This document shows positions 36,217-42,966 of a stretch of 64,000 bases of DNA, one piece after another. A program made the translations under genes and the position numbers. Within the stretch, counting starts at the first letter, position 1. Each line of letters opens with the position of its first letter. Origin of the DNA: Acidobacteriota bacterium (lineage in GTDB: Bacteria > Acidobacteriota > Terriglobia > Acidiferrales > UBA7541); assembly GCA_018268785.1 (NCBI GenBank), contig JAFDVY010000006.1, positions 1 through 64,000 on the forward strand, written 5' to 3'. The notes beneath the pieces are model-generated. The model saw only the letters and a program-made list of their open reading frames with translations. It was not told where the DNA came from and did no database searches.

Positions 36217-36513
36217 ATGGAATTCCATGACAAGGTCCTGAAGTGTTCGGAATGCGGCGCCGAGTTTGTATTTACGTCCGGGGAGCAGATGTTCTTCGCG
36301 GACAAAGGCTTCAAGAACGAACCGAAGCGGTGCAAAGGCTGCAAAGCGAAGCGAGCAGAAGGCAGCGGCGGTGGCGGGCAGATGAGGGCAGAGACGAAGA
36401 CGTCCTGCTCACAATGCGGGAAAGAGACCACAGTTCCCTTCCGGCCAACCCAGGGGCGGCCGGTGTTTTGCAGGGAATGTTTCCAGCAGCGGAGAGCGCT
36501 GGGAGCGGCGTAA
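36217..36513 (+). CDS. Zinc-ribbon protein with CxxC-x17-CxxC domain
   Basis: I chose the ATG at 36217, after AGGGGGA, giving 98 aa. The N-terminal half is a zinc-ribbon (LKCSECGAEFVFTSGEQMFF, closing with KRCKGC). After a Gly-rich hinge the second half carries two CxxC pairs exactly 17 residues apart (CSQCGKET to FCREC). This is the spacing that defines the CxxC-x17-CxxC family. Eight Cys would bind two zinc ions. The function of the family is unknown; a nucleic-acid or chaperone role is only a guess. It is 203 nt after rpsU and about 165 nt before the carboxylate-amine ligase gene. Confidence 0.88.
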   Translation: MEFHDKVLKCSECGAEFVFTSGEQMFFADKGFKNEPKRCKGCKAKRAEGSGGGGQMRAETKTSCSQCGKETTVPFRPTQGRPVFCRECFQQRRALGAA

Positions 36514-36680: not shown

Positions 36681-37817
36681 ATGGCTCACCGCTTCACCAT
36701 CGGTGTCGAAGAAGAGTTCCAGATCATCGATCCCGCAACGTGCGAGCTGCGTTCGCATGTGATGCAACTGGTGTCTGCGGCTTCGCCTTCGATCGTGGAC
36801 CAAGTGAAGCACGAGATGCACCAGTCGATCGTGGAGACCGGCACGAATATCTGCGAGAACGTGGCGGAGCTGCGGATCGAAATGCACCGGACGCGCGGCG
36901 AACTGGTGGCGGCTGCGGAGCGGGCGGGATTGCAAGTGGCAGCGGCGGGAACGCATCCCTTTTCCAGCTGGATCGACCAGGTGATTTCGCCGGGCGAGCG
37001 CTACCAGAACATCGTGGAAGAGTTGCAGCAACTGGCACGGTCGCTGCTGATTTTCGGCATGCACATCCACGTGGCGATGCCGGACAAGCAAACGACGATC
37101 GACATGATGAATATGGTGCGGTATTTCGTGCCGCATTTGCTGGCGCTCTCGACGAGCTCGCCGTTCTGGATGGGGCGAAATACGGGATTGAAATCGTTTC
37201 GAACGACGGTGTTCCGACGGTTTCCGCGGACGGGAATTCCGGAGCAATTCGAATCGTGGAGCGCGTACGAGAATTTTGTGAATTTATTGGTGAAGCTAAA
37301 TTGCATCGATACGGGAAAAAAGATCTGGTGGGATGTGCGGCCGCATCCGACGTTCGGGACGCTGGAATTCCGGATGTGCGACGTGACAACCAAAGTGGAA
37401 GAAGCGGTGGCGATTGCCGCGCTGACGCAAGCACTGGTCGTGAAGCTGCACCGGCTTTACAAGAGCAACCAGAGCTGGCGAATCTACCGGCGCGCATTGA
37501 TTGAAGAGAACAAGTGGCGCGCGGCGCGATACGGAATCGAAGGCAAGATGATTGATTTGGGCAAGGAAGAAGAAGTGCCGATGCGTTCGCTGATTCCGGA
37601 ATTATTGGAACTCGTGGATGATGTGGTGGACGATTTGGGAAGCCGCAGCGCGGTGGAGTACGTGAACACGATCATGGCGCACGGCACAAGCGCGGAGCGG
37701 CAGATGCGCGTATATGAGCACACCGGCGATTTGAAAGCCGTGGTGAGACACATTGTGGCGGAGACGCGCGGCGGAGTTGTGGAGCCGATGCAGTCGACGG
37801 CGCGTGGAATGGACTGA
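36681..37817 (+). CDS. GCS2-type carboxylate-amine ligase (YbdK/glutamate-cysteine ligase family 2)
   Basis: From the ATG at 36681, with GGAGG 8 nt upstream, this encodes 378 aa. The GCS2 signature FTIGVEEEFQIIDPATCELR is at the N-terminus. The fold continues with HEMHQSIVETGTNICENVAE, GTHPFSSWIDQVISPGERYQ and FGMHIHVAMPDKQ. Catalytic-site acids and the His of this ATP-dependent family are conserved. Family members join an amino acid amine to a glutamyl or other carboxylate; E. coli YbdK shows weak gamma-glutamyl-cysteine synthesis. Two ATP-grasp genes and an aminopeptidase follow on the same strand with short gaps. This suggests a pathway making an unusual amide or peptide rather than just glutathione. 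Confidence 0.92.
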   Translation: MAHRFTIGVEEEFQIIDPATCELRSHVMQLVSAASPSIVDQVKHEMHQSIVETGTNICENVAELRIEMHRTRGELVAAAERAGLQVAAAGTHPFSSWIDQVISPGERYQNIVEELQQLARSLLIFGMHIHVAMPDKQTTIDMMNMVRYFVPHLLALSTSSPFWMGRNTGLKSFRTTVFRRFPRTGIPEQFESWSAYENFVNLLVKLNCIDTGKKIWWDVRPHPTFGTLEFRMCDVTTKVEEAVAIAALTQALVVKLHRLYKSNQSWRIYRRALIEENKWRAARYGIEGKMIDLGKEEEVPMRSLIPELLELVDDVVDDLGSRSAVEYVNTIMAHGTSAERQMRVYEHTGDLKAVVRHIVAETRGGVVEPMQSTARGMD

Positions 37818-37861
37818 GTTTTCCAGGCAACTTCGGGCAAAGACAACCTCAGGAGCACGCC

Positions 37862-38902
37862 ATGAAAAAAGTGGGACTGCTGTGCGGTCGGGAGTACGCG
37901 TTTCCTCCGGCGTTTTTGGCGCGGGTGAATGAGGTTGGGAAGAAAGATGGAGTGACAGCGGAATTTGTGAAGCTTGGCGGAACGAAGATGAATGAGCCGG
38001 CCGAGTACGACGTGATCGTGGACAGGATTTCGCATGAAGTGGAGTATTACCGCGGATATTTGAAGCACGCTGTGCTGCAGGGGACGTACGTCATCAACAA
38101 TCCCTTTTGGTGGACCGCAGACGACAAATATTTCAATTATTCAGTGATGGCAAAGCTTGGGCTTGCGATTCCGAAAACGGTACTGCTGCCGCAGAAGGGT
38201 TATCCGAGCAATGTGGATATCACTGCGGAGTCTTTGCACAATCTGAAATACCCGATTGATTGGGACGGACTGCTGGACTATGTGGGGCGTCCGGCGATTT
38301 TGAAACCGTTTTCGGGTGGCGGGTGGAAGCACGTATATAAGGTCAACAACAAGGAAGAGCTTTGGGCGGCGTACGACCAGACTTCGCCGGTGTGCATGAC
38401 GCTGCAAGAGTTCATTGACTTCGACAAGTACGTGCGATGCTTTACGTTCGGGAAGCTGGACATTGTGCCGGTGCATTACGACCCGAAAGAGCGGAAGTAT
38501 CTGGTGGAGCACGATTATTTGGCGGCAAACCTGACTCACCGCGTTGTAAAAGATGCGCAGACGATCAATCAGGCGCTGGGCTACGAGATGAACACGATCG
38601 AGTTTGCCGTGAAGGACGATGTGCCGTATGCAATCGATTTTCTGAATCCGGCGCCGGATTTCGAACGCGACCGCATTACGGACTATTACTTCGAGATGGT
38701 GCTGGACAAGATGTCGCGGCTGGTCATTGAGCGGGCGCTGAATGGTGCGCCGTCAAATCCGTGGCCAAGATGGGAAGAGATGCTAGGAATTGGCGCGCCG
38801 GGAGGGTTTATTGGAGCCCCGAAAGCAGCGGCACAATCGGCTGGCGCACAAACTATGACGGCGCACGTGAAAACAGTTGTTCCCGACACGAAAGCAAAAT
38901 GA
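37862..38902 (+). CDS. ATP-grasp ligase-like protein
   Basis: This 346-aa protein has an ATP-grasp fold. The ATP-binding loop is RPAILKPFSGGGWKHVYKV (about 142-160). The second loop is CMTLQEFIDFDKYVRCF. The Mg-binding end is NTIEFAVKDDVPYAIDFLNP, APDFE. The N-terminal domain starts MKKVGLLCGREYAFPPAF and includes VDRISHEVEYYRGYLKHAVL. It probably phosphorylates a carboxylate and joins it to an amine. AGGAG is 7 nt before the ATG. The last 60 residues are Ala/Gly-rich. It is coupled to the next gene through an ATGA overlap at 38899-38902. The substrate is unknown. Confidence 0.85.
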   Translation: MKKVGLLCGREYAFPPAFLARVNEVGKKDGVTAEFVKLGGTKMNEPAEYDVIVDRISHEVEYYRGYLKHAVLQGTYVINNPFWWTADDKYFNYSVMAKLGLAIPKTVLLPQKGYPSNVDITAESLHNLKYPIDWDGLLDYVGRPAILKPFSGGGWKHVYKVNNKEELWAAYDQTSPVCMTLQEFIDFDKYVRCFTFGKLDIVPVHYDPKERKYLVEHDYLAANLTHRVVKDAQTINQALGYEMNTIEFAVKDDVPYAIDFLNPAPDFERDRITDYYFEMVLDKMSRLVIERALNGAPSNPWPRWEEMLGIGAPGGFIGAPKAAAQSAGAQTMTAHVKTVVPDTKAK

Positions 38903-40284
38903 GCAGCGGAACATCACCGATGGCGAGCCCGAAAGACCCCGCGGAACATTGGCACGCGTTGCTGAAGCCTTACGTGGCGAGCTCGCGTGAATTCACGGAA
39001 AAGTTTTACGCGACTCTTCGAGCGCACAAGCTGACGTTTGGCAATCGCGTGCACTGTCCTTTTCTGCGGCCGTTTTTTCTTTCTCCTGAAGATGAACAGC
39101 GCGTTCGAACCGTCGCCGAAAAAATGGCGGAGCTTGGGGAGCGGGTGGCGGCGGCAGCGCTGAGTGACCCAGCTTTGTTTAAGCAACTTCGCTTGCGCGA
39201 AGGCGAAGAGCGGCTGGCGCGAATGCACACGGGATTTGGGCCGGCGAGTACGGCTTCACGACTGGATGCTTTTCTATTGCCGGATTCGCTCAAGTTTGCG
39301 GAGTACAACGGGGAGTCTCCAGCGGGCTCGGGGTACACGGAGACTTTGTCTGAAGTCTTTCGCGATTTGCCGGTGATGAAGGAGTTTGCGAGGAGTTTTG
39401 AAATTCATAGCTATCCGCTGAGCGCAAAACTGCTCGACGCCCTGATTGCCACCTATCTGGATTGGGGCGGGGATTCGAAACGGCCGCAGATGCTGATTAC
39501 GGATTGGCGGGAAGTTCCGACGTGGAGCGAATTTGAGATTTTGAAAGCGCGATTTGAAAAGATGGGCGTGCCCGTTGAGATTGCAGACCCGCGGGATCTG
39601 GTGTTTGACGGGAAGACGCTGAGCGCAAACGGGAAGAAAATCGATCTGGTGTACCGACGCGTATTGATCAACGACATTCTGGCACGACCGGCGGAATGCA
39701 AGGCGCTGGTGGATGCGTACCAGGCGAATGTCGTCTGCGTCGCGAACAATTTCCGGTGCAAGATTCCCCATGTGAAGGCGTTTTTCGCCGTTTTGACAGA
39801 TGAGAAGAATGGCGGGATATTCTCGTTTGATGAGCGAGAGATGATTAAAAAGCATGTGCCGTGGACGCGCGTGATGGCAGATGTGCAGACGGCGCATTAT
39901 GGGGAGCACATCGAATTGCTGGCTTACGTTAGGCGGGAACGGGAACGCATGGTGTTGAAACCGAGTGATGAATACGGGGGAACCGGCGTGACGCTCGGCT
40001 GGGAGACAAATGAAGCTGCATGGGATGCGGCTATCGAGAAAGCGATTTCCACGAAAGACGGGGCGTGGATCGTACAGGAGCGGATTCCCATTCGGCGGGA
40101 GGTTTATCCGTGGGTGAAGCCGGACGGGAATGTGGAGTTCCGCGACATGCTGGTGGATTTTGCGCCGTATTTGTTCCGCGGGAAGCTGGCCGGATTCTTG
40201 ACTCGATTGAGCGCCACCGGCCTCGCAAATGTAACGAGCGGCGGCGGACAGGTGCCGGCGTTTCGGGTGTGTGCGAAAAACTAA
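38899..40284 (+). CDS. Circularly permuted ATP-grasp protein
   Basis: I chose the ATG at 38899, which overlaps the previous stop as ATGA, giving 461 aa. The metal-binding block appears first (LKFAEYNGESPAGSGYTETL, about 133-152). The ATP loop (MVLKPSDEYGGTGVTLGWE, about 351) and the WIVQERIPIRREVYPW element come later. This order is the reverse of a normal ATP-grasp and marks the circularly permuted type. These proteins are thought to make amide bonds. Here the gene is coupled to a canonical ATP-grasp partner, and a GCS2 ligase lies upstream. It may join a second substrate or form a heteromeric ligase. Confidence 0.85.
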   Translation: MSSGTSPMASPKDPAEHWHALLKPYVASSREFTEKFYATLRAHKLTFGNRVHCPFLRPFFLSPEDEQRVRTVAEKMAELGERVAAAALSDPALFKQLRLREGEERLARMHTGFGPASTASRLDAFLLPDSLKFAEYNGESPAGSGYTETLSEVFRDLPVMKEFARSFEIHSYPLSAKLLDALIATYLDWGGDSKRPQMLITDWREVPTWSEFEILKARFEKMGVPVEIADPRDLVFDGKTLSANGKKIDLVYRRVLINDILARPAECKALVDAYQANVVCVANNFRCKIPHVKAFFAVLTDEKNGGIFSFDEREMIKKHVPWTRVMADVQTAHYGEHIELLAYVRRERERMVLKPSDEYGGTGVTLGWETNEAAWDAAIEKAISTKDGAWIVQERIPIRREVYPWVKPDGNVEFRDMLVDFAPYLFRGKLAGFLTRLSATGLANVTSGGGQVPAFRVCAKN

Positions 40285-40331
40285 CGCCTAAGAATTGACA
40301 CAGAACTGTAAAATCCCATTAAAATATTGAG

Positions 40332-41357
40332 ATGCCCTTTGGACCTGTACGAACGGAGTTGATGCCGGGCGCAAGGAACGCCGTGGAAACATGCCTCGCT
40401 GTGCGTCCGGAAGAGCATGTGGCCCTGATTGCGGATAAAGCCAGCGCGGCGGTAGCTGCGAGCCTGGCGGAAGCGCTGCGCGAACGGAAAGCGGCTTACA
40501 CCGGATTGCTGCTGGAAGATTTTGGGCCGCGGCCGATGCACGGAGCGCCGAAGCCTGTTTTGGATGCGCTGGAAACCGCGGATGTTGGAATTCTTTGCAT
40601 GAACCCGCAGCCGGGGGAACTCGGCGCGCGGATGGCGATTGTGCAGGTAGTGGAGCGACGACGGATTCGCTATGCACACATGGTGGGCGTGACACCGCAG
40701 ATCATGCAGATGGGCATGCGGACGGATTATAAAAAGGTGGACCAACTAAGCGATCGTTTGCGCGAAAGAATGTTGCGCGCGGAGACGCTAACCGTGAAGA
40801 CGGAAGCTGGCACCTCATTTGCCGCGCACTTCAGCCGTGATCTGGATTGGGTGAAGACGAGCGGGCTGATCAGTCCGCGGTATTGGTCGAATTTGCCAGC
40901 CGGGGAAGTTTTTACAACGCCAGCAAGGGTGGATGGCACGTTTGTTTGCGATGCGACGGCGGGCGACTATTTTAACGGGAAGTACGGCGATTTGCAGGCG
41001 ACGCCGATGAAGCTGACGATTGAAGGTGCGCGCCTGACGAAGGTGGAATGTAAGCGCAAGGATTTGGAAAAGGAGTTCTGGGACTACTGCCACACGGATG
41101 AGAACAGCGACCGCATCGGGGAGCTGGCGTTCGGGACCAACCTGGGGCTTTCGGAGATGATCGGAATTCTGCTGCAGGACGAGAAATTCCCAGGAGTTCA
41201 TATTGCGTTTGGCGACCCCTACGGAAGCCAGACGCATGCGGATTGGAAATCGAAGACGCACGTGGACGTGCTGACGCGCAATTGCGACGTTTGGATCGAT
41301 AGCGACCAGATTATCGAGAAGGGGCACTACCAGCTCGACCACCTCGGCTTGGCCTAG
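40332..41357 (+). CDS. M29-type aminopeptidase-like metalloprotein
   Basis: This 341-aa protein has the C-terminal metal-binding signature of the aminopeptidase T/AmpS (M29) family: ELAFGTNLGLSEM, LLQDEKFPGVHIAFG, DPYGSQTHADWKSKTHVD. The N-terminal domain (MPGARNAVETCLAVRPEEHV, LIADKASAAVAASLAEALRE) fits too. Relatives release N-terminal residues using Co or Zn. An in-frame ATG at 40362 is another possible start, because no clear ribosome site precedes 40332. It follows the circularly permuted ATP-grasp gene by 47 nt on the same strand. In this cluster it may trim or recycle the product. Confidence 0.88.
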   Translation: MPFGPVRTELMPGARNAVETCLAVRPEEHVALIADKASAAVAASLAEALRERKAAYTGLLLEDFGPRPMHGAPKPVLDALETADVGILCMNPQPGELGARMAIVQVVERRRIRYAHMVGVTPQIMQMGMRTDYKKVDQLSDRLRERMLRAETLTVKTEAGTSFAAHFSRDLDWVKTSGLISPRYWSNLPAGEVFTTPARVDGTFVCDATAGDYFNGKYGDLQATPMKLTIEGARLTKVECKRKDLEKEFWDYCHTDENSDRIGELAFGTNLGLSEMIGILLQDEKFPGVHIAFGDPYGSQTHADWKSKTHVDVLTRNCDVWIDSDQIIEKGHYQLDHLGLA

Positions 41358-41378: not shown

Positions 41379-41798
41379 TCAGTCAGTCCATGGATTCACA
41401 ACGGGCGTAGAAAGATCCGAGAAGTGGGAGATGTTTCGCGTCGCCAGAGTTGCACGGTTGGCAAGAGCAATCCCAGCAATCAGTGTGTCGCGAAAGTCCA
41501 TTTGACGTCCTCTAACTCGTCGTGCTGCCATCAGTGAGGCAGTGTGCTCCGCGGCCCCCAGGTCAAAAACAGCCAAGCGGCCCTCCAGCTCTTTGTTCAA
41601 GACTACTTCCAGCGCCGCGGCCATGCGATCGCGTCGCGCTCCTGCTGGCATGATTTGCAATCCATAACGAAGTTCTATCAGCGTGATTGAAGTCGTCCAG
41701 ATGGAACCAGATGGCTGTCGATTGAGCCAATCAAGAACCACTGGTTCGGGTTGAGGGTGCATCAGAGCGGAGATGACATTCGTATCCAGAAGGACCAT
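41379..41798 (-). CDS. PIN-domain toxin (VapC/FitB type)
   Basis: This 139-aa ribonuclease toxin has the PIN acids in MVLLDTNVISALMHP (Asp-5), SITLIELRYGL (Glu), and MDFRDTLIAGIALANRATLA (two Asp). C-terminal RNISHFSDLSTPVVNPW, typical of the FitB branch, follows. It starts 6 nt after the antitoxin stop, so both are from one operon. It is convergent with the M29-type gene, with 21 nt between stops. The complete motif set suggests an active toxin that cleaves RNA when antitoxin is depleted. Confidence 0.93.
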   Translation of the reverse strand: MVLLDTNVISALMHPQPEPVVLDWLNRQPSGSIWTTSITLIELRYGLQIMPAGARRDRMAAALEVVLNKELEGRLAVFDLGAAEHTASLMAARRVRGRQMDFRDTLIAGIALANRATLATRNISHFSDLSTPVVNPWTD

Positions 41799-41804
41799 CG
41801 GGGA

Positions 41805-42065
41805 TCATTCACCAAAGTCCGGAGGCTCAAGCGTAAATCCCTTGAATTCAGGAATCTCCTCTCCCGGACGGAGGCCGCAATCCCGAAAGTGCGCCGCTAT
41901 CCGGGTACCTAGTCCCTCTTTCGGCGGCGCCTCTTTTTCTGCTTTCGCTGCATCGCGCAGAATTTCGCGGACTTCTTCTTCCATGCTGCGACCGTGGCGC
42001 TTGGCTCGTTTTTGAAGCTTCGTTTTGACGGAATTTTCGAGATTGCGAACGATAAGCTGGGCCAT
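41805..42065 (-). CDS. FitA-type ribbon-helix-helix antitoxin
   Basis: I chose the ATG at 42065, giving 86 aa, with AGG 6 nt upstream. A GTG four codons earlier is also in frame. The N-terminal ribbon-helix-helix (MAQLIVRNLENSVKTKLQKR, RAKRHGRSMEEEVREILRDA) is the FitA-like DNA-binding part. The C-terminal tail (GEEIPEFKGFTLEPPDFGE) would wrap the PIN toxin. It is expected to neutralise VapC and repress its own operon. The 18-bp palindrome at 42084-42101 is a natural operator. Confidence 0.92.
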   Translation of the reverse strand: MAQLIVRNLENSVKTKLQKRAKRHGRSMEEEVREILRDAAKAEKEAPPKEGLGTRIAAHFRDCGLRPGEEIPEFKGFTLEPPDFGE

Positions 42066-42237: not shown

Positions 42238-42966
42238 CTAATACAAATGTGCGATGTACTCCCTCATCTGATGCTTCCAGTAGGGCCAGTCGTGGCCACC
42301 TTGGGGACCCCAATTGTCCAATGAGTGGCGAATACCCTTGTGGGCGAGGATTCCGGAAAAATGATAGGTGGGACCGGAATTTTCCCACGGGCCGGTGCCG
42401 GTGGACAGGTGAATGTCGCAGGAAGAGAGCTGGCCGTAGACCCAGGGGTCAGAAAGATTGGAGATATAGTCCACAGGATTGTTGAAATAGAAATTGTCGT
42501 CGTACATGCCGTCCATGAAATTGCGCAGGTCGTAGACGCCGGACATGGCGAAGCAACGCTTGATAACGTCGGGATGCTTGAAGAGAGAATTTGCGGCGTG
42601 ATAGGCGCCGAAAGATGCGCCCATTGTGGCGATCGGAGGCTGCGATTTGCAATTGTCCCAGATGAAAGGAACGACTTCCTCGCGTAAATAAGAATCGAAC
42701 ACGGATTGGACATAGCTGCGATGAAAAGGGTGCGCGCCTTTGTTATAAAAACTGAGGCCGTTGATGGAATTAACGGAGTAAAACTTGATGCGGCCCGCGT
42801 CAATGAAGTCGGCGAGCGCGCCGATCATTCCCTGCCCTTCGAGCTCCCATTCGTCGCCCGCGCTCGTGGGAAAGCCCAGGATGGGAAAGCCATAGTGGCC
42901 GTACACCACGACACCCAGTTCGATGCCGAGCCGATGCGAATACCAATGGTGATAGTCGCGCTGCAT
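42238..42966 (-). CDS. Esterase of the alpha/beta-hydrolase (COG4947-like) type
   Basis: I chose the ATG at 42966, with AAAGG 8 nt upstream, giving 242 aa. The nucleophile elbow is ATMGASFGAYHAAN (G-x-S-x-G). The likely Asp is in the GMYDDNFYFNNPVDY or neighbouring segment. The His is in GPQGGHDWPYWKHQM. The N-terminal strand pattern (HRLGIELGVVVYGHYGFPIL, FPTSAGDEWE) and MSGVYDLRNFMDGMYDD resemble the esterase/lipase superfamily called COG4947. Relatives of this family are reported beside ATP-grasp or GCS2 genes in amidoligase clusters, from memory. Here it faces the cluster at 36681-41357 from the other strand, so any link is inferential. It is divergent from the methyltransferase gene. Confidence 0.85.
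   Translation of the reverse strand: MQRDYHHWYSHRLGIELGVVVYGHYGFPILGFPTSAGDEWELEGQGMIGALADFIDAGRIKFYSVNSINGLSFYNKGAHPFHRSYVQSVFDSYLREEVVPFIWDNCKSQPPIATMGASFGAYHAANSLFKHPDVIKRCFAMSGVYDLRNFMDGMYDDNFYFNNPVDYISNLSDPWVYGQLSSCDIHLSTGTGPWENSGPTYHFSGILAHKGIRHSLDNWGPQGGHDWPYWKHQMREYIAHLY

Follow-up and report, generated by a model that had tools for sequence, protein, structure and literature searches.

Within a 64,000-nucleotide window of DNA from an Acidobacteriota bacterium with a 4.2 Mb genome (the window being the whole stretch that was analyzed), a group of neighboring genes combines predicted amide-forming ligases with predicted hydrolases. Four of them lie head to tail on the forward strand and are referred to here as Y (36681..37817, 378 amino acids), for a putative GCS2/YbdK-type carboxylate-amine ligase; G (37862..38902, 346 amino acids), for an ATP-grasp ligase; C1 (38899..40284, 461 amino acids), for a circularly permuted ATP-grasp ligase; and M (40332..41357, 341 amino acids), for a metalloprotein of the M29 superfamily. 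A fifth gene, E (42238..42966, reverse strand), encodes a hydrolase, and a divergent ligase that is an alternative to C1 in some relatives is designated C2. An earlier note on this DNA had described the first four genes as a four-gene cluster. Its coordinates were right, as were the gaps of 44 nt, the 4-nt overlap (ATGA) and the gap of 47 nt, and its families were confirmed, since GCS2, permuted ATP-grasp and M29 score above the Pfam cut-offs and G is an ATP-grasp protein by its family profile and invariant residues. The members of the set thus stood, but its completeness did not, the conserved unit reaching past position 41357 to E. The three different ligase folds claimed in the note are really two, because the permuted form counts as ATP-grasp too.

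Y matches PF04107 (GCS2) with 218.8 bits against a cut-off of 21 (E 1.3e-64), the YbdK structure 1r8g with an E-value of 1.9e-51 and, over its full length, the NCBIfam model PRK13515 with 527.9 bits against a curated cut-off of 371. It is the only one of the four originally noted genes that is named by NCBIfam above cut-off, and its identity in relatives is 70-92%. On these matches, Y is clearly assignable to the PRK13515 group of GCS2/YbdK-type ligases. G falls below every Pfam cut-off; its family profile matches the structures of D-Ala-D-Ala ligase (3r23, E 4.5e-6) and biotin carboxylase. The residues K148, R192, E247, D259 and N262 do not vary among 23 homologues; the ATP-binding lysine and the acidic and asparagine metal ligands are present, and K148, E247, D259 and N262 align with the Ddl motif. 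The conserved catalytic part of G extends over approximately residues 1-308, followed by a variable C-terminal tail.

C1 was identified by PF14403 (CP_ATPgrasp_2, 44.6 bits against a cut-off of 32), and the permutation recognized in the earlier note is borne out by the order of its motifs: the metal-binding block EYNGESPAG (amino acids 135-143, positions 39301..39327) precedes the ATP loop KPSDEYGGTGV (amino acids 354-364, positions 39958..39990). R121, D123, E135, N137 and E139, together with K354, D357, G361 and G363 of the loop, are invariant in all 26 sequences compared. Degeneracy of such sites, a point on which the note had made its proposal depend, was not found on alignment, where the ATP loops and metal ligands proved invariant. 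An AlphaFold (AF2) model of C1, with a mean predicted local distance difference test score (pLDDT) of 91.8, was compared with known structures by Foldseek. The best matches were glutathione synthetases (GSS) of the eukaryotic type, with template-modeling (TM) scores of 0.67-0.71, followed by 3n6x, which is also the closest structure by profile, Cp1B (9cjn), YgiC/YjfC, the glutathionylspermidine synthetase GspS and trypanothione synthetase. A Pfam scan across the 461 amino acids matched the ATP-grasp region only and gave no amidase domain. The spacing of the R-x-D and E-x-N motifs presumably resembles that of R316, D318, E330 and N332 in GspS of E. coli. In genome G035, C1 (locus L051, 531-1897, reverse strand) is interrupted by two stops close to the end of a contig and is either a pseudogene or an assembly error.

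Profile-profile comparison of C2 with C1 (P 5.5e-5, probability 66%) points to C2 as a probable, divergent relative of C1; that it is a permuted ATP-grasp is thus likely but not certain. An apparent fusion of C2 to an M3 peptidase in Ignavibacteriota was discarded, as it spans unknown bases of the assembly.

M matches PF02073 (Peptidase_M29) with 41.3 bits against a cut-off of 27, and 33 sequences show no variation at E192, E264, E284, H290, Y297, H310 and D312. This set corresponds to the metal ligands and catalytic tyrosine described for the M29 enzyme MesoAmp (PMC5587760) and, apart from the tyrosine, to the site of CgnB (PMC10070186); H310 and D312 were paired with M29 by motif position, as the alignment with AmpS ends before them. 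For the AF2 model of M (pLDDT 88.5), Foldseek gave the highest TM scores with NicX (0.70-0.72), followed by AmpT (0.66), PepS (0.60-0.64) and CgnB/CgnE (0.53-0.55). NicX binds iron through His265, Ser302, His318 and Asp320 (PMC7910607), and the residue of M that aligns with His265 is E264, which is glutamate in 33 of 33 sequences. Because of this replacement, a 2,5-dihydroxypyridine dioxygenase of the NicX type was rejected despite the nearest fold, and a metallohydrolase like those of M29 and CgnB is the better reading of M. The earlier note had proposed a terminal peptidase for trimming or recycling; the dinuclear metal set of M29 is indeed there, but since the nearest fold is that of NicX, and no aminopeptidase activity was observed for CgnB in spite of its intact site (PMC10070186), both the peptidase activity and the role of M are here only presumed. 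E was identified by PF00756 (E 3e-10), with S122 and H229 invariant in 22 sequences. Its best matches in the PDB are feruloyl and other CE1-type esterases, and it is annotated as a CE1-like alpha/beta hydrolase, a putative esterase.

The genes have remained together far beyond the source genome, as the earlier note had suggested should be checked. Within the genus, C1 is present in 32 of 36 genomes, including the source (in one as a fragment only), and at the 29 other loci examined Y, G and C1 are neighbors in every case where the contig extends far enough. At 24 of these 29, M is no more than about 1.5 kb away, and at three more it follows after a few further kilobases. Compared with the window, C1 shows approximately 65-75% identity, G and M 77-86% and full-length Y 81-92%. 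The Y-G-C1-M set also occurs, at 59-77% identity and in different surroundings, in a genome from a second family. Of the named organisms whose contigs were scanned, Candidatus Acidiferrum typicum, also of the Acidobacteriota, is the closest relative. This conservation of the neighborhood led to the rejection of chance adjacency or an annotation artefact as an explanation. No additional shared member was apparent between the genes in relatives with wider spacing, where the open reading frames differ in number, size and strand (their families were not scanned).

On scanning 84,980 genomes with a profile of G, at least 563 relatives were confirmed, the best 80 of which were examined. Gene order changes while linkage is retained: Y-G-C1-M with a convergent E is found in gp2 and gp6/Vicinamibacteria, E-G-Y-M-C2 in Terriglobia and E-G-C1-Y in Melainabacteria. 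Of the Terriglobia version, Edaphobacter lichenicola and Acidobacterium sp. S8 carry the E-G-Y-M genes. Versions with only part of the set reach four phyla outside the Acidobacteriota; among them are E-G or E-G-C1 (Chloroflexota), G-Y (Armatimonadota) and G-C2 (Ignavibacteriota). Within 4.5 kb of G at 82 loci, E was found 40 times, Y 53, M 40, C1 29 and C2 18 times, these counts being lower bounds owing to contig ends. In a tree of G, the C1/C2 label switches once; the choice between the two ligases follows the phylogeny of G.

Co-occurrence was studied in 99 genomes, at least 90% complete and drawn evenly from the phylum, with strong and weak hits separated by eye at a gap in the bit scores. 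G gave strong hits in 28 genomes, distributed over 16 families, and weak hits in four. Strong hits of C1 (16 genomes) and the presence of C2 (12 genomes) were confined to strong-G genomes and jointly cover 26 of the 28, two genomes having both; neither ligase was found without G (Fisher p 7e-22). E is present in 30 genomes, namely 29 of the 32 with a strong or weak G and one without (p 2e-20), and tracks G more tightly than M does, for which strong hits were obtained in seven genomes, all with G (p 8e-5). Y is strong in 27 genomes, among them 22 of the 28 with strong G (p 4e-12). In two mixed families (f11 and f33), the genes were mostly gained or lost jointly. From these counts, E and G form the tightest pair, one slot is filled by C1 or C2, Y occurs often and M is an optional member. 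C2 seems to take the place of C1 in Terriglobia. In genome G067 (C17:169548-171484), where neither C1 nor C2 is present, a member of a distant G subfamily (approximately 165 bits) directly adjoins a homologue of E and may represent the minimal E-G pair. Six genomes of another family (f14) contain a separate C1-like subfamily (approximately 200 bits) without G, E or Y.

With the gene identities, the intact ligase and metal sites, the linkage and the co-occurrence established, the cluster is probably a dedicated non-ribosomal amidoligase pathway that joins free amino acids or amines into a small metabolite of peptide-like or amide character. Y, being of the gamma-glutamylcysteine-ligase type, would form an acyl phosphate from a carboxylate, probably that of glutamate or of a different amino acid, and couple it to an amine. 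C1, with its glutathione-synthetase-like fold, may add a further unit and G, as a relative of D-Ala-D-Ala ligase, another one. Three ATP-dependent ligases would thus act one after another, following a glutathione-like logic extended by an ATP-grasp step, while hydrolysis by E and M would serve to process the product, deprotect it or recycle it. The idea of a pathway to a novel peptide or small metabolite had already been put forward in the earlier note; its reasoning from adjacency and intact sites holds, while the gene set on which it was based lacked E and the lineage-specific C2. It is also conceivable, though rather doubtful, that the product is an unknown but widespread glutathione-like pseudo-tripeptide or amide, a core molecule of soil Acidobacteria beside bacillithiol, with the products of C1 and C2 differing in the last unit.

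Several observations weigh against an amidoligase pathway of this kind. In Blastocatellia, G often stands alone, with C1 or Y a few kilobases away on the other strand, elsewhere in the genome or unseen, and G in this clade may have a role outside the pathway. Y also occurs in Acidobacteria that lack G, where other uses may exist, and M is absent from most G genomes. No exporter or regulator was noticed to recur beside the genes, the recurrent neighbors having been only partly scanned by family. The Fisher tests ignore shared ancestry. Finally, it is the substrates, the order of steps and the product, as well as the roles of E and M, that we infer. As a separate observation on Blastocatellia, G is accompanied at a series of loci (L072-L101) by PspA-like, sigma-factor-like and other recurrent genes, which were named by eye.

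Among the other explanations, the ligases might modify a protein or carrier, in the manner of RimK on ribosomal protein S6 or LysX on LysW, and E and M would then remove the modification. Protein tagging does use ATP-grasp and GCS2-like ligases, and G gives a weak match to the RimK family TIGR00768; at 37 bits, however, it lies far under the cut-off of 143.4, C1 resembles ligases acting on small molecules, and the zinc-ribbon protein encoded at 36217-36513 is found near the cluster only within the genus, so that modification of a protein appears unlikely. Somewhat less likely still is a glutathione-type low-molecular-weight thiol as the product, in which case E would be an S-acyl-thiol hydrolase comparable to S-formylglutathione hydrolase. 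The pair of a GCS2 and a GSS-like ligase parallels the plant glutathione pathway, and S-formylglutathione hydrolase is among the weaker PDB matches of E, although feruloyl and other CE1-type esterases match it better. The bacillithiol gene bshC is present in the source genome (contig C99) and in 26 of 28 strong-G genomes; there is hence no vacancy for a replacement thiol, and the replacement of bacillithiol is unsupported.

Use of peptides or amines, whereby M and E would degrade an imported compound and the ligases would salvage it, as in the catabolism of gamma-glutamylated amines, was judged the least probable of these alternatives. M has kept a dinuclear site of the aminopeptidase type, and putrescine catabolism in E. 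coli begins with gamma-glutamylation, but catabolism hardly accounts for two or three ligases that consume ATP, and the recurrent neighbors inspected included no recognizable transporter, aminotransferase or oxidase. Lastly, a ribosomally synthesized and post-translationally modified peptide of the graspetide kind was discarded as unlikely because the operon leaves no room for a precursor peptide, the gaps in the window being 44, -4 and 47 nt; no search was made for precursors encoded outside the operon. At locus L104, the E-G gap is at most about 35 nt and the M-C2 gap at most about 7 nt.

Between M and E, the window contains two reverse-strand genes that are placed outside the pathway: a PIN-domain toxin (41379..41798; PF01850, E 4.4e-13) and a small open reading frame just upstream of it (41805..42065), which is probably its cognate antitoxin. 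The PIN pair is an insertion that separates M from E in the window, and most relatives have no PIN gene at the same place. Upstream of the cluster, a small double treble-clef zinc protein (36217..36513, forward strand; zf_Tbcl and zf_Tbcl_2) is encoded, which occupies this position in most of the genus, was not seen there in other families and gives a very weak LysW-like match. A role in anti-phage defense was rejected, as PADLOC gave no match, and no sign of viral carriage was found.

Soil Acidobacteria are abundant and chemically little understood. Tightly co-inherited amide ligases and hydrolases, most of which give no match to a named functional family, offer a testable lead to an unknown metabolite, and the carriers of the genes include cultivable species. 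The set could also supply new biocatalysts for the formation of amide bonds. On searching the literature, no paper describing the Y-G-C1-M-E set and no characterized equivalent was found.

Of the known systems, the plant or eukaryotic-type glutathione pathway shares with the cluster a GCS2-type first ligase (Y and the plant glutamate-cysteine ligase) and, in C1, the fold of GSS, with which C1 has only about 15% identity. It differs in that the cluster adds G, E and M and coexists with bacillithiol genes. Glutathionylspermidine and trypanothione synthetases and YgiC/YjfC have the circularly permuted ATP-grasp core of C1, but C1 is without the amidase domain of GspS and its fold is nearer to GSS. 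Cp1B, matched by C1 through 9cjn, is a GSS-like ATP-grasp ligase in the synthesis of E-64, a small pseudopeptide inhibitor made without a non-ribosomal peptide synthetase (NRPS) (PMC12568646). The E-64 pathway is fungal and includes an oxygenase and an ANL-type amide synthetase, and no GCS2, M29-like or CE1 partner has been described for it (PMC12568646). The full dinuclear metal site of M is found in the M29 aminopeptidases AmpS, AmpT and PepS and in CgnB of crocagin biosynthesis; M is shorter than the aminopeptidases (341 against approximately 410 amino acids) and nearest to NicX in overall fold. Partners of the alpha-E/Anbu tagging systems were not seen among the scanned genes of the window, and the recurrent neighbors recognized at the 80 loci, which were partly scanned by family, are E, M, Y and C1 or C2. 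Mixed amidoligase/peptidase systems, which resemble the present cluster in grouping several amidoligases with hydrolases in the absence of an NRPS, were reportedly predicted by Iyer and colleagues in 2009. Mixed clusters of this sort are of an already known kind.

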